A stretch of 64,000 nt of DNA from Anaerolineales bacterium (lineage in GTDB: Bacteria > Chloroflexota > Anaerolineae > Anaerolineales > Villigracilaceae), in assembly GCA_024710905.1 (NCBI GenBank), contig JANJTV010000036.1:1-64000 (forward strand), in the 5' to 3' direction. Under the pieces are notes generated by a model. That model did not search any database, had not been told where the DNA came from, and was given only the letters and a program-made list of their open reading frames with translations. Of the stretch, positions 23,289 through 53,468 are shown piece after piece. Made by a program: the position numbers and the translations under genes. The first letter of the stretch is position 1. The number at the start of each line of letters is the position of its first letter.

Positions 23289-24854
23289 TCAGCGCGGCAT
23301 CGTCGCAATCACATCAGAAACTGCGCCGATCAATAGTCCCGGGGTAACATACACTTCAATTACCGCGGCCAGCAGTAAGAGGGGAATACACACAGCCACC
23401 ATCAACCTGACCCATTCGGCCAGGGCTTCAATAAACACTTCACCAATCGAGACATTCTCCTCCGGCGTCACCAGCCGAACCCCCAGATTCAGCATGGCCG
23501 CCGTTGCAAAAATCACTGCGGCCAGCTCAAAAACACCATGCGGCAAAATGCCATATACAAAAATGGTCCAGGGTGGAATGCCCAGCAATTCCACCCCACC
23601 CAGAATTGCCCCAATTAATGAAAAGTTCAGTATATAAACCAAAATACCAATCACACCGAACGAGAACATCCCAAAAAACATAATCAGGACAACAGCGCGA
23701 AAATTATTGAAAAAGAGGAAAGGTACATTCAGATTGGTATGAAGGACATCGCCATCCAGTTGTTCATCTAACAACCCGAACAGTCTGCTAATTGGGAAGT
23801 TTTCAGACAAAGTGACCGTCTGGCTGGTGTATACATAAGCTCCGACAATGGCGATTAAACCAATCAGGCTGACCACCCCGAGCGGCAGTCGCAAGCGCCC
23901 AAACGCTGGCCCGACCTGGTGCTTATACCAATCCGCTACCGAGAGGATATCACGCACGAATGCAGCTCCCAGCGAAAAAGTCGCATCTTCAGTCATTACA
24001 GGTGCACGACGAAATAACTGTGCAAGTTTTCGGGATGCCCAGGCCCAGGTCGCGGTGGGCTGGTCTGTCCCACTGTAAGCCTTCCAGAACTGCCTCAACA
24101 TATAACGAAGATCCAAAACATCAATTTCACGGCCAATCAGGCGTTCACGCTGAAAATGAGACAGTCCCAATCGCACCAATAGCCCTGCCATAATTGCAAC
24201 ACCAACGACCGCAAACCAGAGAACCTGGTTATTACCCCAAAATAATAAAACGCTCTCTCCTTGGATTAACAAAGCCACCGGGATGACAATAAATGAAGCC
24301 AATAAATTGGCCGCTCTGACCGAGGTGGACTGTGTGGAAATCACCATAGCGGCACTGACCATTAAAACGGTTTGCACCGTGCTGAGCGCCAGGGTCTGGA
24401 TAATCATTTCCGCTTCGGGGAGGGCAATTTTCTGGTAAACCAGGCCACCCAGGTATAAGGCCGTGCTCAGGTAGCCTGCCCCCAACGGAACAAGCGTTCC
24501 CGCAATCAGCTTGCCAAAATACATGTGCCAGTCTTCAAGGGGGCTGCTAAGCATGGGCTCAATTGTCCCGCGTTCCTTTTCACCAACAAAAGACTCCAGG
24601 GCAACCACCAGGGAAACCGTAACCGGGAAAAAGCCCACCACGAGCACAAGGAAGGGAATAATGCGCTCAGCAACGGTATTGGCACCATATTGATTGATAA
24701 AGTCCACTGCTTGCCGGGCGGCAAAATTCATCAGGTATGGGAAGAAAATCACCAGGATGATCATCGGCATAATCACGCGCCAGTCACGCATCTGGTCAAC
24801 CAGTTCCCGCTGGGCAACAATCCATACCAGGGAAAAGTCCTTACGATATTTCAT
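23289..24854 (-). CDS. ABC-2 type permease fused to a SpoIIM-like membrane domain
   Basis: Residues 1-260 form an ABC-2 permease: a basic cytoplasmic start (VAQRELVDQMRDWR), a first transmembrane helix, the periplasmic loop, and the conserved cytoplasmic segment FVGEKERGTIEPMLSSP, followed by helices. Residues 300-521 resemble stage II sporulation protein M, with the hallmark GILPHGVFELAAVIFATAAML at about 435-455 and several helices. Such domains are normally separate genes often found near ABC-2 transporters, so a fused form is notable. The start overlaps the ATPase stop by four bases, giving a complete transporter with the ATPase encoded upstream. The cargo is unknown. Confidence 0.85.
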   Translation of the reverse strand: MKYRKDFSLVWIVAQRELVDQMRDWRVIMPMIILVIFFPYLMNFAARQAVDFINQYGANTVAERIIPFLVLVVGFFPVTVSLVVALESFVGEKERGTIEPMLSSPLEDWHMYFGKLIAGTLVPLGAGYLSTALYLGGLVYQKIALPEAEMIIQTLALSTVQTVLMVSAAMVISTQSTSVRAANLLASFIVIPVALLIQGESVLLFWGNNQVLWFAVVGVAIMAGLLVRLGLSHFQRERLIGREIDVLDLRYMLRQFWKAYSGTDQPTATWAWASRKLAQLFRRAPVMTEDATFSLGAAFVRDILSVADWYKHQVGPAFGRLRLPLGVVSLIGLIAIVGAYVYTSQTVTLSENFPISRLFGLLDEQLDGDVLHTNLNVPFLFFNNFRAVVLIMFFGMFSFGVIGILVYILNFSLIGAILGGVELLGIPPWTIFVYGILPHGVFELAAVIFATAAMLNLGVRLVTPEENVSIGEVFIEALAEWVRLMVAVCIPLLLLAAVIEVYVTPGLLIGAVSDVIATMPR

Positions 24855-25780
24855 AATTCTCCAGCCACGGCCAGGTTCATGGCCCTGAGATAGACCTGCT
24901 CCAGGCTGCGCGGTACTTCGTGCACAGCAACTACAGAGATTCCACGTTCAACCAGGCCTGAAACCAGGGCCGGGTTCTCTTTTTCAGGGCTTTCAGTATG
25001 GTAGGTAAAGCCATTCTCTGTGAAGTGCGTTACTTCCAGGTTGGGGATCGCGCGAATGGCTCCTTGCGACCACTTCCCTGCCAACCGCACTTCATATTCC
25101 GGTACACCCAACAATTGGCGGCGCAGTTCGTCAAGCGTTCCCTGTAACAGGATGCGCCCGCGGTAAATAATCGCGATCTTGTCAGCCAGGGTTTCAGCCT
25201 CAACAAGGTTGTGGGTACAAATAATGATCGAACGTTCGGATGACTTCAGCCGGGCAATTTCATTCCGAACCAACTGGGCGCTTTCAGGGTCCATCGCTGA
25301 AGTCGGCTCGTCGAGTAATAACACCGGCGGTTCATGAATTAATGCGCGCGCCAGGGCCAGCTTTTGGCGCATGCCCTTGGAATATTCACCAGAACGGCGT
25401 TTCGCAGCTTCAGCCAGGCCAAAATAATCCAGTAATTCTTTTGAGCGGCGTGCGCGGGTTGTTTTATCCAGGCTATACACCTGGCCGAAAAAATCCAGAT
25501 ATTCGTTGGCAGTCATGCGGGTGTACAAGCCATGCTGCTCGGTGAGTACACCTACTGAGGCGCGCACCTTACCCGGGTGACGCACAACATCATGCCCGGC
25601 CACCCGCGCCCACCCGCGCGTGGGGGATAAAACAGATGTGAGCATACGTACGGTAGTGGTCTTGCCTGCCCCATTTTGACCGAGCAGTGCCAGCACCCGC
25701 CCACGCGGGACGTTCAGGCTGACCCCTTCTACGGCTTTGAAGTTCTCAAAATATTTGGTTAGGTCTTCGCATTCAATCAT
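24851..25780 (-). CDS. ABC transporter ATP-binding protein
   Basis: This nucleotide-binding subunit has Walker A GQNGAGKTT at 34-42, the signature YSKGMRQ at 133-139, Walker B LLLDEP at 154-159, and the switch His in IICTHNL. It belongs to the NatA/CcmA-like group that pairs with ABC-2 permeases, here the fused permease encoded next. The C-terminal 80 residues form a regulatory extension. It lies 17 bases after lgt in the ten-gene operon. Confidence 0.93.
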   Translation of the reverse strand: MIECEDLTKYFENFKAVEGVSLNVPRGRVLALLGQNGAGKTTTVRMLTSVLSPTRGWARVAGHDVVRHPGKVRASVGVLTEQHGLYTRMTANEYLDFFGQVYSLDKTTRARRSKELLDYFGLAEAAKRRSGEYSKGMRQKLALARALIHEPPVLLLDEPTSAMDPESAQLVRNEIARLKSSERSIIICTHNLVEAETLADKIAIIYRGRILLQGTLDELRRQLLGVPEYEVRLAGKWSQGAIRAIPNLEVTHFTENGFTYHTESPEKENPALVSGLVERGISVVAVHEVPRSLEQVYLRAMNLAVAGEL

Positions 25781-25797
25781 TCTTCACCAATAAATAT

Positions 25798-26619
25798 TCA
25801 AGTTACTTGCGGACGGAAATGACGCCACACCAGGACGGCCACAGCCGCCACGGCGACAACCGCCATGAATGTCTGGTTGGCATTGATTCCGCCCAGCATG
25901 GAGGCGTCCAGACGCAGGAAATCGAGCAGGAAACGCCCCAGGGGATAAATCACCAGGTAAACAAAGAAAATATCACCCGGTTTCAGGCGGTCGACAAAAC
26001 GACGCCCCAGCCAGAGCAATAAAACCATGTTACCGAAATTCCAGAGTGATTCGTAGAAAAACAACGGGTGAAATGTTTCATATTGCTCAAACCCAGCCAG
26101 GCGATGTACAGGATCAATGGAAATGGCCCAGGGAAGGTTGGTTGGTGCACCATACAACTCTTGATTAAAGTAATTACCCCAGCGACCAATGGCCTGCCCC
26201 AGCGCCAGAGCCGGGGCAATGATGTCCATCCAGATCGGGTAACTACCCCCGTGGCGACGGGTGTAAAAATACAACGCAACCGCCCCGCCAATCACCGCGC
26301 CGGGAATACCCAAGCCGCCGCGCCAGATGGCCAAAATATCCAGCGGGTGTTGCAGGTAGTACAGGGTGGTAATGCCTGCCGCCACAGATGAGGGTGGCGG
26401 GGTGAAGATATGCCACAAACGCGCGCCAATCACACCGCCAACCAGCAGCCATATCAGTAAATCCCAGACCTGGTCCGGGTCTACTGAACGGCGGTTCGCT
26501 TCACGGGTGGCCAGCCAGGCGCCGGCAATCGCGCCAAGCATGATTATCATGCCATAAAATCGCAGGACAAATTCCTCCCCAAAAATCCTGAAGTAAAGGC
26601 CATCAAAAAGAATCTGCAT
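25798..26619 (-). CDS. lgt: Prolipoprotein diacylglyceryl transferase
   Basis: This integral membrane enzyme transfers diacylglycerol from phosphatidylglycerol to the lipobox cysteine of preprolipoproteins, the first step of lipoprotein maturation. The family signature GQAIGRWGNYFNQELYG is at 141-157, preceded by the conserved WRGGLGIPGA. About seven helices fit the known topology, and 273 aa is normal. It follows the phospholipid synthase gene by six bases, which makes sense because the enzyme consumes phosphatidylglycerol. Confidence 0.95.
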   Translation of the reverse strand: MQILFDGLYFRIFGEEFVLRFYGMIIMLGAIAGAWLATREANRRSVDPDQVWDLLIWLLVGGVIGARLWHIFTPPPSSVAAGITTLYYLQHPLDILAIWRGGLGIPGAVIGGAVALYFYTRRHGGSYPIWMDIIAPALALGQAIGRWGNYFNQELYGAPTNLPWAISIDPVHRLAGFEQYETFHPLFFYESLWNFGNMVLLLWLGRRFVDRLKPGDIFFVYLVIYPLGRFLLDFLRLDASMLGGINANQTFMAVVAVAAVAVLVWRHFRPQVT

Positions 26620-26625
26620 TGTGAT

Positions 26626-27255
26626 TTACTCTTTCGCAGAGGCAGCCTTGCTGCGGGCATCCCTGCGCACACGCCAGATGCGTTGCAAGGCAGTGATGTT
26701 CCCCAACACGGCAATGATCCAGATGACCCAGAGAGGTTGGTTAAGGATCAACAATGGGCCAATCACCATGTAACGTTCCATACGGGTCAGGATGCCGGTA
26801 TTGGCATCAAACTTAAGCGAATCGGCCCGCGCCTTGACATACGATACCAGCACAGAGCCAGCGGCAGCCGCATAACAAACCATGACTGACAACCAGTCGT
26901 TTTGCCCGAGGAAGTAATACGACAGCCCACCCAGCACAAACAATTCGGAATAGCGATCTGTGACAGAATCGACAAAGGCGCCAAAATCACTGGCTTCGCC
27001 ACGCATACGCGCCATGGTACCATCCAGCGCATCCAGCGGGCCACCCACCATCGCTAGGATGCCGCCCAGCACAATTTCTCCGCGCGCCACCATAAACCCG
27101 GCAGCCACATTTAACAATAGACCCAGCATGGTAATCATGTTGGGCGTCACGCCAATTTTGAGCAGGAAAGCTGCCGTCGGTTCGGTAATGCCTTTGAACC
27201 ACAGGCGCATATAGTCAGTAAATGTTTGGGGAAGTTTTTTTATATCTTGAGCCAT
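26626..27255 (-). CDS. CDP-alcohol phosphatidyltransferase
   Basis: This membrane enzyme condenses CDP-diacylglycerol with an alcohol phosphate or alcohol to make a phospholipid. The full signature D-x2-D-G-x2-A-R-x8-G-x3-D-x3-D is present exactly (D75, D78, G79, A82, R83, G92, D96, D100). About five hydrophobic segments fit the family. Sequence alone does not tell phosphatidylglycerophosphate synthase from phosphatidylinositol-phosphate synthase. Its neighbour lgt uses phosphatidylglycerol, which slightly favours the former. Confidence 0.9.
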   Translation of the reverse strand: MAQDIKKLPQTFTDYMRLWFKGITEPTAAFLLKIGVTPNMITMLGLLLNVAAGFMVARGEIVLGGILAMVGGPLDALDGTMARMRGEASDFGAFVDSVTDRYSELFVLGGLSYYFLGQNDWLSVMVCYAAAAGSVLVSYVKARADSLKFDANTGILTRMERYMVIGPLLILNQPLWVIWIIAVLGNITALQRIWRVRRDARSKAASAKE

Positions 27256-27276
27256 TGATTCATCCTTAAGTTTTTT

Positions 27277-29523
27277 TTACCTGAAGCCCTGCCCTGGCTC
27301 GTCAGAGTCGTACAGGTCTTCATCGTCACTAGAATCGATCAACACATCCCGTTCCTTGCCGCCGCCCTGCGACGGGCCGACCACCCCCATCTCTTCCAGC
27401 TGGTCAAGCAGGCGGGCTGCACGCGGATAGCCAATCCGCAGTCGGCGCTGCAACAGTGAAGCGCTGGCGCGCTGCGTTTGGCGCACAACACCAATTGCCT
27501 GTTCCACCAAGGCATCATCGCCGCCTTCTTCCGGTTCCTGCAGGATGCTCTCCCAGGGCGGGGAATGATGGTCAGTTTTGGATTTGGACTGCCAGAACGA
27601 AATCAACCGTTCAATTTCCTGGTCGGTAATGAGAACACCCTGGGCACGCAAAGGGTTGCCAATTTCAGGGTTGAGGAAAAGCATATCTCCGCGCCCAAGC
27701 AAGCTCTCAGCGCCTGGCATATCCAGAATGACGCGGCTGTCCACACCGGAAGTGACGGCAAATGCCAGCCGAGCTGGGAAGTTCGCTTTAATTAACCCGG
27801 TAACGACATCTGTGCTGGGGCGCTGGGTGGCCACCACCAGGTGAATGCCAGTGGCGCGGGCCATCTGGGCCAGGCGTACCAGGTTGTGTTCGGTCTGGTC
27901 TGGCGCAGACATCATCAGGTCGGCCAGTTCATCAACAATCACCACAATGCGCGGTAGCGGCCCACCGCCGCCATCTTTACGACCACGCGCCTTGCGGTTG
28001 TAGGCTTCCAGATCGCGGGCGCGTGAACCTTCGAGCAGGCGGTAACGGTGTTCCATTTCGACTACCAGCCAGCGCAAAACACCCATGATGCGCTCGACAT
28101 TGGTCTCCACTTTACCGTAAAGATGGGGCAGGCCGTTAAACCGAATCAGCTCGACCATCTTCGAGTCGATCATCACCAGGCGAAGTTCGTCGGGCGTATT
28201 GTTCATCGCCAAACAGGCAGCAATGGCCGTGATACAGACCGATTTTCCCGAACCCGTTGCGCCCGCCACCAGCATATGGGGCATACGCGAAAGATCGGCC
28301 ACCAGGGGCTGGCCCGAGACATCTCGGCCTAGGGCAATGGCCAGTGGTACGGCCATTTTATTGAACTGTTCACTCTCAAGCAGGGATTTCAATCGCACGG
28401 TTGCAGCGCGCGAATTGGGCACTTCAATGCCAACATAAGACTTGCCAGGCACAGGCGCTTCAATCCGTAACCGTTCGGCGGAGAGCGCCAGCGCCAGGTC
28501 TTTTTGCAACGAGGCAATCTGCGCCACGCGCACTTTCATCTGCTGGTGGTCTTCCTCGTTTGTACCCGGCTTGCGGATAAAACCCGGCTGCACGGCAAAT
28601 TGCGTTACTGTTGGGCCAACGCGAAACCCCACCACCTGGGCCGGGATGCCAAATTCGGAAAGGGTTTTTTCGAGCAAGCCAGCCGTCTGGTTTATGTGGC
28701 GCTCGTCCGGGCGGGTGGACTGGTCGGTAAACAGCAGGGACAGCGGCGGCAGGTCTTCGCCGCGTTTGTGGGGCACAGCAGGGACTTCATCCTGCGTTTC
28801 AGGAACCTTGAAATTCTTACGGAATTGCTCGGGCAGGGAGATAGGCTTCCGGGCGGGAGGCGTCTTCTGGGTACGGGAGACAGGCTCCGGCTGGGCCAGC
28901 CCGGCAGGTATCTCCGTAATCACGGGATCAAACTCCTCTGGCAGCACTTCCATCATTTCGCCTGAAAACTTCCACAGGGCTTTTTCCAGCAGGCCAAACA
29001 ACCCGAACGCAAAACCAGCTGTGACCAGTACCCCCAGCGCAACAATGATATTCCGCCACAGGTCACCAACCAGCAGGCTGAGCAGGCTGGCCAGGGACCA
29101 ACCCGTGTAACCGCCATCCAGCCCGGCTTCGGCACGTTCAATAGATGCGCCGCCAAGCAACGTAAAGGCAACGAGCATGAAAAAGTAAAAACTCTCGAAG
29201 GCGATCAGGCGGCCCCAGGGAAGTTGTTGGGCAGGCATGCCGCGCCGGTAGAACAAGAATATGCTGGCCGCCAACATGGAGAAGCCGAACAGGTAGCTGC
29301 CCCAGCCCAACCAGCGGCGCAAGGTAAACGCCCAAGGGGTAAGCAGGGTCCCCTGTGTCCACTCGAAGAGCGCCAGCAGGGTAAGCAGGGAGAGGACCAG
29401 CAAGAGCAGCCCGCCGACATCCAACGTAAAACGCCCAAAGTGGGTTTGGAGTCGCTGCGTCCAATCCAGCAGGTCTGGTTGGTGGGGTGGTGGTTCGTGG
29501 CGGTATTTTCGAGAGTCGGGCAT
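27277..29523 (-). CDS. ftsK: FtsK/SpoIIIE DNA translocase
   Basis: This is a septum-located motor that pumps chromosomal DNA into daughter cells. Four transmembrane helices lie in the first 190 residues, then a Pro-rich linker, the alpha/beta motor domains with Walker A AGATGSGKS near 420-428 and Walker B IVVIVDELADLM, and a C-terminal winged-helix gamma domain (ASASLLQRRLRIGYPRAARLLDQLEEMGVVGP) that reads orienting sequences. At 748 aa it is close to SpoIIIE. The start is the ATG sharing one base with the S1-gene stop (TAATG); the extra 16 residues of the ORF track lie in that gene. It ends in an acidic tail. Confidence 0.94.
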   Translation of the reverse strand: MPDSRKYRHEPPPHQPDLLDWTQRLQTHFGRFTLDVGGLLLLVLSLLTLLALFEWTQGTLLTPWAFTLRRWLGWGSYLFGFSMLAASIFLFYRRGMPAQQLPWGRLIAFESFYFFMLVAFTLLGGASIERAEAGLDGGYTGWSLASLLSLLVGDLWRNIIVALGVLVTAGFAFGLFGLLEKALWKFSGEMMEVLPEEFDPVITEIPAGLAQPEPVSRTQKTPPARKPISLPEQFRKNFKVPETQDEVPAVPHKRGEDLPPLSLLFTDQSTRPDERHINQTAGLLEKTLSEFGIPAQVVGFRVGPTVTQFAVQPGFIRKPGTNEEDHQQMKVRVAQIASLQKDLALALSAERLRIEAPVPGKSYVGIEVPNSRAATVRLKSLLESEQFNKMAVPLAIALGRDVSGQPLVADLSRMPHMLVAGATGSGKSVCITAIAACLAMNNTPDELRLVMIDSKMVELIRFNGLPHLYGKVETNVERIMGVLRWLVVEMEHRYRLLEGSRARDLEAYNRKARGRKDGGGGPLPRIVVIVDELADLMMSAPDQTEHNLVRLAQMARATGIHLVVATQRPSTDVVTGLIKANFPARLAFAVTSGVDSRVILDMPGAESLLGRGDMLFLNPEIGNPLRAQGVLITDQEIERLISFWQSKSKTDHHSPPWESILQEPEEGGDDALVEQAIGVVRQTQRASASLLQRRLRIGYPRAARLLDQLEEMGVVGPSQGGGKERDVLIDSSDDEDLYDSDEPGQGFR

Positions 29524-30509
29524 TACGCTCCGTTGAGCTTCAGGCTCAGGCCAAGGCGCTGGTGCTGGCAATCAATGTGGATGATGCGCACCTGGACGGA
29601 TTGATTTTCGGAGAAGGTTTCACGAACCGATTGCCCGGAGGGTAAATCAATCTCTGAAACATGCGCCAAACCCTCGAGACCCTCCTCAAGGCGGCAAAAA
29701 ACGCCGAACGAAACGACCGTTGTAATGGTCGCCGGGACAATGTCATCGACGGCATAGCGCTGGCGGGCGTCTTCCCAGGGGTTGGGTTGCAAGCGTTTCA
29801 GGCTCAGGGCAATCCGGCAGCGCTCAGGCATGATGTCCAGCACCTGCACACGAACCTGCTGACCAAGGCTGGCCAGGTGGGAAGGGTGAATTACACGGCC
29901 CCAGGACAATTCAGAAATATGAATCAGTCCCTCGACACCGCCCAGATCAACAAACACGCCAAAGTCGGTGACATTGGTCACTTCACCAGTGATGATCTCC
30001 CCAACCTGGATGCTGGAGAACAACTGGGTGCGCTTGCCAGAATCGACACGGGCCGCGCGCTCCGAGAAGACCGCCCGGCCTTCTTCAGGCACACACTCGA
30101 TCATTTTCAGGCGCAGTTCCTGGCCTTCATATTTGGAAAGAAAGGCTTCGCGGTCACCTTCCAACTCGCAGGTCATATCAACCAGGTGCGAGTAAGGAAC
30201 AAAGCCTTGCAGGCGTTCGTTCTCCACAAGCAGGCCGCCGCGGTTATAACCAACGACACTCAACGAAATAATCTGATCCTGTGCAAACAGGTCCTGCGCA
30301 AATCCCCAATCATTATTACGTTTGGGGTGTTCAGAATCAATGGCAGCATTCCGCGCAATCGGCGCAGGCACATCTTGATACTGCGGATGAGAAGCACGGG
30401 GCTGGGCAGGCCCGTATCGTGACTCATCCGAGAGGACCGATTCCCACCAGCCATCTTCTGCGGCCAGCGACGGTTCTTCTTGCATTCTCCTCGGGTTTGT
30501 AATTACCAT
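29523..30509 (-). CDS. S1-domain RNA-binding protein (ribosomal protein S1-like)
   Basis: This 328-aa protein has an unstructured N-terminal 70 residues followed by three S1 OB-folds at about 75-150, 163-235 and 248-326. Repeat marks include ITGEVTNVTDFGVFVDLGGVEGLIHISELSW in the second and ATITTVVSFGVFCRLEEGLEGLAHVSEI in the third. It resembles the short S1 homologues of non-proteobacteria, which may aid translation initiation or RNA turnover. AGGAGG lies ten bases from the chosen ATG. It overlaps ftsK by one base and follows the 7TM sensor by 18 bases. Confidence 0.88.
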   Translation of the reverse strand: MVITNPRRMQEEPSLAAEDGWWESVLSDESRYGPAQPRASHPQYQDVPAPIARNAAIDSEHPKRNNDWGFAQDLFAQDQIISLSVVGYNRGGLLVENERLQGFVPYSHLVDMTCELEGDREAFLSKYEGQELRLKMIECVPEEGRAVFSERAARVDSGKRTQLFSSIQVGEIITGEVTNVTDFGVFVDLGGVEGLIHISELSWGRVIHPSHLASLGQQVRVQVLDIMPERCRIALSLKRLQPNPWEDARQRYAVDDIVPATITTVVSFGVFCRLEEGLEGLAHVSEIDLPSGQSVRETFSENQSVQVRIIHIDCQHQRLGLSLKLNGA

Positions 30510-50976: not shown

Positions 50977-51906
50977 ATGATTGAATGCGAAGACCTAACC
51001 AAATATTTTGAGAACTTCAAAGCCGTAGAAGGGGTCAGCCTGAACGTCCCGCGTGGGCGGGTGCTGGCACTGCTCGGTCAAAATGGGGCAGGCAAGACCA
51101 CTACCGTACGTATGCTCACATCTGTTTTATCCCCCACGCGCGGGTGGGCGCGGGTGGCCGGGCATGATGTTGTGCGTCACCCGGGTAAGGTGCGCGCCTC
51201 AGTAGGTGTACTCACCGAGCAGCATGGCTTGTACACCCGCATGACTGCCAACGAATATCTGGATTTTTTCGGCCAGGTGTATAGCCTGGATAAAACAACC
51301 CGCGCACGCCGCTCAAAAGAATTACTGGATTATTTTGGCCTGGCTGAAGCTGCGAAACGCCGTTCTGGTGAATATTCCAAGGGCATGCGCCAAAAGCTGG
51401 CCCTGGCGCGCGCATTAATTCATGAACCGCCGGTGTTATTACTCGACGAGCCGACTTCAGCGATGGACCCTGAAAGCGCCCAGTTGGTTCGGAATGAAAT
51501 TGCCCGGCTGAAGTCATCCGAACGTTCGATCATTATTTGTACCCACAACCTTGTTGAGGCTGAAACCCTGGCTGACAAGATCGCGATTATTTACCGCGGG
51601 CGCATCCTGTTACAGGGAACGCTTGACGAACTGCGCCGCCAATTGTTGGGTGTACCGGAATATGAAGTGCGGTTGGCAGGGAAGTGGTCGCAAGGAGCCA
51701 TTCGCGCGATCCCCAACCTGGAAGTAACGCACTTCACAGAGAATGGCTTTACCTACCATACTGAAAGCCCTGAAAAAGAGAACCCGGCCCTGGTTTCAGG
51801 CCTGGTTGAACGTGGAATCTCTGTAGTTGCTGTGCACGAAGTACCGCGCAGCCTGGAGCAGGTCTATCTCAGGGCCATGAACCTGGCCGTGGCTGGAGAA
51901 TTATGA
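50977..51906 (+). CDS. ABC transporter ATP-binding protein (right-arm copy)
   Basis: This is an identical 309-aa ATPase with Walker A GQNGAGKTT, signature YSKGMRQ and Walker B LLLDEP. It overlaps the fused permease gene by four bases. Confidence 0.9.
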   Translation: MIECEDLTKYFENFKAVEGVSLNVPRGRVLALLGQNGAGKTTTVRMLTSVLSPTRGWARVAGHDVVRHPGKVRASVGVLTEQHGLYTRMTANEYLDFFGQVYSLDKTTRARRSKELLDYFGLAEAAKRRSGEYSKGMRQKLALARALIHEPPVLLLDEPTSAMDPESAQLVRNEIARLKSSERSIIICTHNLVEAETLADKIAIIYRGRILLQGTLDELRRQLLGVPEYEVRLAGKWSQGAIRAIPNLEVTHFTENGFTYHTESPEKENPALVSGLVERGISVVAVHEVPRSLEQVYLRAMNLAVAGEL

Positions 51907-53468
51907 AATATCGTAAGGACTTTTCCCTGGTATGGATTGTTGCCCAGCGGGAACTGGTTGACCAGATGCGTGACTGGCGCGTGATTATGCCGATGATCAT
52001 CCTGGTGATTTTCTTCCCATACCTGATGAATTTTGCCGCCCGGCAAGCAGTGGACTTTATCAATCAATATGGTGCCAATACCGTTGCTGAGCGCATTATT
52101 CCCTTCCTTGTGCTCGTGGTGGGCTTTTTCCCGGTTACGGTTTCCCTGGTGGTTGCCCTGGAGTCTTTTGTTGGTGAAAAGGAACGCGGGACAATTGAGC
52201 CCATGCTTAGCAGCCCCCTTGAAGACTGGCACATGTATTTTGGCAAGCTGATTGCGGGAACGCTTGTTCCGTTGGGGGCAGGCTACCTGAGCACGGCCTT
52301 ATACCTGGGTGGCCTGGTTTACCAGAAAATTGCCCTCCCCGAAGCGGAAATGATTATCCAGACCCTGGCGCTCAGCACGGTGCAAACCGTTTTAATGGTC
52401 AGTGCCGCTATGGTGATTTCCACACAGTCCACCTCGGTCAGAGCGGCCAATTTATTGGCTTCATTTATTGTCATCCCGGTGGCTTTGTTAATCCAAGGAG
52501 AGAGCGTTTTATTATTTTGGGGTAATAACCAGGTTCTCTGGTTTGCGGTCGTTGGTGTTGCAATTATGGCAGGGCTATTGGTGCGATTGGGACTGTCTCA
52601 TTTTCAGCGTGAACGCCTGATTGGCCGTGAAATTGATGTTTTGGATCTTCGTTATATGTTGAGGCAGTTCTGGAAGGCTTACAGTGGGACAGACCAGCCC
52701 ACCGCGACCTGGGCCTGGGCATCCCGAAAACTTGCACAGTTATTTCGTCGTGCACCTGTAATGACTGAAGATGCGACTTTTTCGCTGGGAGCTGCATTCG
52801 TGCGTGATATCCTCTCGGTAGCGGATTGGTATAAGCACCAGGTCGGGCCAGCGTTTGGGCGCTTGCGACTGCCGCTCGGGGTGGTCAGCCTGATTGGTTT
52901 AATCGCCATTGTCGGAGCTTATGTATACACCAGCCAGACGGTCACTTTGTCTGAAAACTTCCCAATTAGCAGACTGTTCGGGTTGTTAGATGAACAACTG
53001 GATGGCGATGTCCTTCATACCAATCTGAATGTACCTTTCCTCTTTTTCAATAATTTTCGCGCTGTTGTCCTGATTATGTTTTTTGGGATGTTCTCGTTCG
53101 GTGTGATTGGTATTTTGGTTTATATACTGAACTTTTCATTAATTGGGGCAATTCTGGGTGGGGTGGAATTGCTGGGCATTCCACCCTGGACCATTTTTGT
53201 ATATGGCATTTTGCCGCATGGTGTTTTTGAGCTGGCCGCAGTGATTTTTGCAACGGCGGCCATGCTGAATCTGGGGGTTCGGCTGGTGACGCCGGAGGAG
53301 AATGTCTCGATTGGTGAAGTGTTTATTGAAGCCCTGGCCGAATGGGTCAGGTTGATGGTGGCTGTGTGTATTCCCCTCTTACTGCTGGCCGCGGTAATTG
53401 AAGTGTATGTTACCCCGGGACTATTGATCGGCGCAGTTTCTGATGTGATTGCGACGATGCCGCGCTGA
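51903..53468 (+). CDS. ABC-2 permease / SpoIIM-like fusion (right-arm copy)
   Basis: This is an identical 521-aa fusion: ABC-2 permease half with FVGEKERGTIEPML, and SpoIIM-like half with GILPHGVFELAAV. Confidence 0.83.
   Translation: MKYRKDFSLVWIVAQRELVDQMRDWRVIMPMIILVIFFPYLMNFAARQAVDFINQYGANTVAERIIPFLVLVVGFFPVTVSLVVALESFVGEKERGTIEPMLSSPLEDWHMYFGKLIAGTLVPLGAGYLSTALYLGGLVYQKIALPEAEMIIQTLALSTVQTVLMVSAAMVISTQSTSVRAANLLASFIVIPVALLIQGESVLLFWGNNQVLWFAVVGVAIMAGLLVRLGLSHFQRERLIGREIDVLDLRYMLRQFWKAYSGTDQPTATWAWASRKLAQLFRRAPVMTEDATFSLGAAFVRDILSVADWYKHQVGPAFGRLRLPLGVVSLIGLIAIVGAYVYTSQTVTLSENFPISRLFGLLDEQLDGDVLHTNLNVPFLFFNNFRAVVLIMFFGMFSFGVIGILVYILNFSLIGAILGGVELLGIPPWTIFVYGILPHGVFELAAVIFATAAMLNLGVRLVTPEENVSIGEVFIEALAEWVRLMVAVCIPLLLLAAVIEVYVTPGLLIGAVSDVIATMPR

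Follow-up and report, generated by a model that had tools for sequence, protein, structure and literature searches.

A membrane protein that joins an ABC-2 permease to a SpoIIM domain in one chain is widespread and conserved in Chloroflexota, and is not peculiar to a single genome. Both of its parts are known families. In the window, i.e. the whole stretch of 64,000 nucleotides of Anaerolineales DNA that was analyzed, the protein is encoded by one continuous reading frame next to a gene for an ABC ATPase. The gene, its domains and its conserved motifs occupy the following window positions:

23289..24854, minus strand: ABC-2 permease and SpoIIM fusion gene, 521 aa, a continuous ORF with an ATG start
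24285..24824, minus strand: ABC-2 permease domain (ABC2_membrane_2, Pfam), aa 11-190, with NosY as nearest solved relative
23340..23867, minus strand: SpoIIM domain (PF01944, Pfam), aa 330-505
24552..24596, minus strand: ESFVGEKERGTIEPM, conserved segment at aa 87-101, just past the second TM helix (alignment)
23526..23543, minus strand: PHGVFE, the SpoIIM signature, aa 438-443 (alignment)

A preliminary description of this DNA had read the N-terminal half as an ABC-2 permease and had seen a SpoIIM hallmark in the C-terminal half, and Pfam bears out both assignments. The fusion protein matches ABC2_membrane_2 (PF12679) with 47.3 bits against a cut-off of 27.2 (E 2e-12) and SpoIIM (PF01944) with 69.7 bits against a cut-off of 26.9 (E 4e-19); searched alone, the C-terminal part scores 73.2 bits with SpoIIM. 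The string quoted as the hallmark, GILPHGVFELAAV, is present in that half, and the SpoIIM similarity falls within residues 300-521, where its absence had been named as the outcome that would overturn the reading. Six long hydrophobic helices, predicted to cross the membrane and located within aa 25-233, correspond to the six-helix ABC-2 membrane domain.

An alignment of 40 fused proteins reveals that residues E87, F89, G91, E92, E94, R95 and E99 of the ESFVGEKERGTIEPM segment are invariant, and aa 92-101 are helical in the AlphaFold model. From knowledge of the ABC-2 family, we take this segment to be the coupling helix that contacts the ATPase, and it is designated here as a putative coupling helix. 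In the SpoIIM domain of the same 40 proteins, P438 and E443 are invariant, and H439 and G440 nearly so; the f42 sequences shown in the SpoIIM alignment carry N in place of H. The PHGVFE signature is kept in stand-alone SpoIIM proteins too, and the N, the PHG and two E positions are common to fused and stand-alone members. Conservation extends to the ESFVGEKERGT motif of the permease as well as to the SpoIIM signature, so both halves of the protein are considered to be under constraint. No second SpoIIM-domain protein besides the fusion was found in the source genome.

The search for the same architecture in other Chloroflexota, which the preliminary description had proposed, was carried out with a 40-member profile and found a single frame covering both domains in 87 of 400 sampled genomes. 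The threshold for calling a genome fused was one frame that spanned some 390 or more of the 474 positions in the profile, and the count was made manually from the score table. Profile scores across the 400 genomes drop sharply below the fused frames, down to single-domain matches, and one further genome (G114) contains a two-domain frame that is broken. Among 101 related genomes, nearly all matches to both halves share one open frame of ~475-530 aa. Altogether, 134 distinct fused loci were found across all loci examined, and the carriers include an isolate genome, that of Levilinea saccharolytica (L153). The best 80 matches among 84,980 species genomes are all from Chloroflexota by name or from Chloroflexota-labelled MAGs. 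At two loci (L092:63-1524 and L140:5956-7405) two overlapping frames stand in place of the single fused one, and sequencing frameshifts in MAGs are the probable cause. A viral origin was rejected, with no relative of the fusion found in viral contigs by a single-sequence query, as was carriage on plasmids: Pediococcus plasmids matched the permease part only, at 28% identity. A literature search returned no paper on an ABC-2/SpoIIM fusion, an architecture that may stand in domain-architecture databases already. The wide spread of the fusion in the phylum had been missed by the preliminary description, as had the tandem form presented below.

The genes that precede the fusion in the window lie on the same strand:

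24851..25780, minus strand: ABC ATPase, 309 aa (ABC_tran E 1e-30), with a DrrA-like C-terminal domain
25798..26619, minus strand: lgt, prolipoprotein diacylglyceryl transferase (PF01790 E 1e-65)
26626..27255, minus strand: CDP-alcohol phosphatidyltransferase (PgsA-like), placed in the same operon (PF01066 E 2e-17; synteny)
27277..29571, minus strand: FtsK/SpoIIIE-type DNA translocase (PF01580 E 3e-58)

The ATPase gene and the fusion gene share 4 nt (ATGA), an overlap that suggests coupled translation, and lgt is likely part of the same operon. Upstream sequence was sufficient at 130 loci, and at 128 of them the gene immediately before the fusion encodes an ABC ATPase on the same strand, the two exceptions being L191, which is near a contig end, and L162. 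At the latter (L162:3415-7434), ftsK directly precedes the fused gene and there is no ABC ATPase beside it. The preliminary description had proposed a natural fusion through which SpoIIM is physically coupled to an ABC transporter, and this is upheld. The neighbors identified around the fusion are lgt, the PgsA-like gene, ftsK and HNH; lgt lies upstream in 62 of 84 loci and ftsK in 47 of 72. The order ftsK, PgsA-like gene, lgt, ABC ATPase and fusion (window 24851-29571) recurs in Anaerolineales, and in other classes mostly the ATPase-fusion pair alone remains.

AlphaFold models the fusion with a mean pLDDT of 90.7 and a pTM of 0.85. The top Foldseek matches, which cover the N-terminal half, are the NosY chains of NosDFY, with a TM-score of up to 0.62 on the target, and a sequence profile search agrees, with an E value of 2.4e-7 for NosY against that half. 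NosY, however, has no SpoIIM domain, and no nosD-like neighbor was recognized in the fusion operon. The established job of NosDFY, to which NosY belongs, is nitrous oxide reductase maturation, and export by the fusion is therefore not certain.

The SpoIIM domain alone (window 23292-23969), modeled with 64 fused and stand-alone relatives, reached a pLDDT of 92.4 and a pTM of 0.86. Among structures solved up to April 2026, no convincing match to this model was found (best probability 0.23), the TM-scores listed were below 0.4, and none of the matches was an ABC-2 protein. The most conserved residues of the domain, N384, P438-H439-G440, E443 and E500, are located inside predicted helices, an arrangement that points to a polar site within the membrane. 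Comparison of the SpoIIM and ABC-2 profiles gave a probability of 1%, i.e. no detectable homology, and the idea that SpoIIM is a degenerate ABC-2 half was rejected on this result. The fusion, poor in soluble loops and confidently modeled, with a SpoIIM fold that lacks a close solved match, represents a good structural target.

A second architecture fixes the likely make-up of the system as two ABC-2 halves and one SpoIIM domain. Families f36 and f46 were sampled with 30 genomes, and in every one the protein is a tandem form of 740-870 aa in which two ABC-2 domains are followed by one SpoIIM domain (loci L088, L099, L101 and L184-L192). When three tandem proteins were aligned, the ATPase-facing residues of the motif showed no variation in either ABC-2 copy. 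The tree of the tandem form needs two changes, and one duplication is also compatible with it. Since the tandem chain has a full ABC-2 pair and yet retains SpoIIM, this domain is unlikely to be a missing half, which argues that it is an accessory module and not the second half of the transporter.

We consider it fairly probable that the ATPase gene and the fusion gene together encode an ABC-2-type exporter, conserved in Chloroflexota, with SpoIIM as an accessory module for substrate handling or partner docking. The ABC ATPase would be the motor, and the NosY/NatB-like permease with its C-terminal SpoIIM domain the membrane subunit, of this predicted exporter. The ABC-2 halves of two fusion chains may come together as a pair on a dimer of the ATPase, and in f36 and f46 that pair would be supplied within one chain (ABC2-ABC2-SpoIIM). 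ATP hydrolysis would then drive the permease pair, presumably in the direction of export. The most likely task of SpoIIM would be to deliver a substrate, hydrophobic or amphiphilic, to the ATP-driven permease or to dock a partner there. The conserved covalent link between SpoIIM and ABC-2 beside an ATPase, found across the phylum, is a testable lead that SpoIIM works with ATP-driven transport. Further points against the exporter reading are the fused locus L162, with no upstream ATPase, and the circular-bacteriocin-like loci L093 and L097, whose large membrane proteins have no detectable ABC-2 homology.

SpoIIM (COG1300), although best known from sporulation, is widespread in non-sporulating bacteria and archaea. 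The C-terminal half of the fusion keeps the N...PHGxxE...E signature of this family (SpoIIM / COG1300 / PF01944) and differs from it by being fused to a permease. TIGR02831, the equivalog for sporulation SpoIIM of the DMP complex, gives 29.4 bits with the fusion against a cut-off of 100.2, and SpoIIP was found in none of the 41 genomes searched, with a positive B. subtilis control. Given the absence of SpoIIP, the known sporulation role is unlikely, and these genomes do not reconstitute the complex of B. subtilis. A second ABC-2 permease that is fused to another membrane domain, NF041647, is matched weakly through its ABC-2 part; its partner is a CPBP protease, however, and the fusion scores 37.8, far under the 435-bit cut-off.

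The strongest experimental parallel comes from circular bacteriocins, all clusters of which contain a SpoIIM/DUF95 gene and ABC transporter genes (PMC6131525; PMC8659200). When the DUF95 gene lcyD is knocked out, mature leucocyclicin Q stays within the cells (PMC6131525). The fusion locus contains the SpoIIM protein and the ABC ATPase that characterize the circular bacteriocin secretion module. In that module, as here, SpoIIM (LcyD for leucocyclicin Q) works with an ABC ATPase, but it is encoded by a separate gene, and no bacteriocin precursor was recognized among the identified neighbors of the fusion. Circular bacteriocin-like sets, in which a large membrane protein, SpoIIM and an ABC ATPase each have a gene of their own, were observed at L093:5349-8203 and L097:6091-9095. 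The large protein has 529-536 aa and 10-13 predicted TM helices, and the SpoIIM protein 179-189 aa. The large proteins have no Pfam or NCBIfam match and almost no relatives within their orders; common ancestry with the ABC-2 domain was considered and no homology was detected. Tentatively, and with the balance of probability against it, SpoIIM may be the dedicated third module of one class of ABC-2 exporter, of which the fused, the tandem and the separate circular-bacteriocin sets would be variants. If there were one such machine class, the non-sporulation SpoIIM family would have a general role in transport.

The most serious competitor of the exporter reading, which we nevertheless regard as unlikely, is a mechanotransmission or envelope-remodelling machine of FtsEX- or NosDFY-like type that exports nothing. 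The strokes of the ATPase would be passed via ABC-2 to SpoIIM, which would recruit an envelope enzyme in the way that B. subtilis SpoIIM recruits SpoIIP and SpoIID. NosY as the top match in both structure and sequence is consistent with such a machine, as are the envelope genes lgt and the PgsA-like gene in the Anaerolineales operon. SpoIIM is moreover a recruiter in B. subtilis, and a role in membrane remodelling has been proposed for it elsewhere (PMC5898192). However, the SpoIIP partner is missing from all 41 genomes searched, and the fusion shows no consistent linkage to any gene for a periplasmic partner: outside the order, the ATPase-fusion pair alone is recognized. Far less probable is a pseudo-dimeric arrangement in which SpoIIM forms the second, unlike half of the pore and one fusion chain is a complete transporter. 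The two halves are both helical and similar in size, and a single chain stands beside a single ATPase gene, as such an arrangement would have it. It is opposed by the tandem form, where SpoIIM is kept next to two ABC-2 domains, by the lack of profile similarity between SpoIIM and ABC-2, and by the lack of an ABC-2 match to the SpoIIM model among solved structures.

That the fusion is an artefact, two neighboring genes joined by misassembly or a frameshift, has a negligible probability, even though the source contig (C37) is itself artefactual. This contig of 76,756 bp is an exact end-to-end palindrome with arms of 38,378 bp, no spacer and no mismatch, and self-comparison shows that window positions 12757-64000 equal their own reverse complement. 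The palindrome, which the preliminary description does not mention, is almost certainly an assembly artefact, most likely of the fold-back type. It places the fusion gene in the window twice, and the second copies are the following:

51903..53468, plus strand: the fusion gene again, as a mirror-image copy from the palindromic contig
50977..51906, plus strand: the ABC ATPase gene again, as a mirror-image copy from the palindromic contig

The palindrome thus doubles the fusion gene and does not create the fusion. The same single two-domain ORF recurs in 87 of 400 genomes and at 134 distinct loci, including that of the isolate Levilinea saccharolytica, and its presence in many independent genomes excludes a frameshift or assembly join. 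The continuous frame free of any frameshift join, as first described, is thereby confirmed. Every gene of window 12757-64000 is seen twice as a result of the palindrome, and duplicated genes reported from the window are suspect.

The initial interpretation also held that ABC-2 and SpoIIM are separate neighboring genes in most genomes. While the natural fusion tied to an ABC transporter stands, this part is not supported: among 49 distinct non-fused SpoIIM loci of Chloroflexota, an ABC-2 domain of the fusion's type was found nearby only at L140, which is a frameshifted fusion, so that no true case was recorded with the subfamily ABC-2 profile. This count refers to ABC-2 domains within 3 kb, many loci having just 1.5 kb of flank, and to a profile built from the fusion's own subfamily, so that ABC-2 proteins of other types, or genes farther away, could have escaped it. 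One non-fused SpoIIM locus, L079:2390-6701, was fully examined. It belongs to the same family and has, besides its fusion, a stand-alone SpoIIM gene that is accompanied by MoxR, DUF58 and RDD genes.
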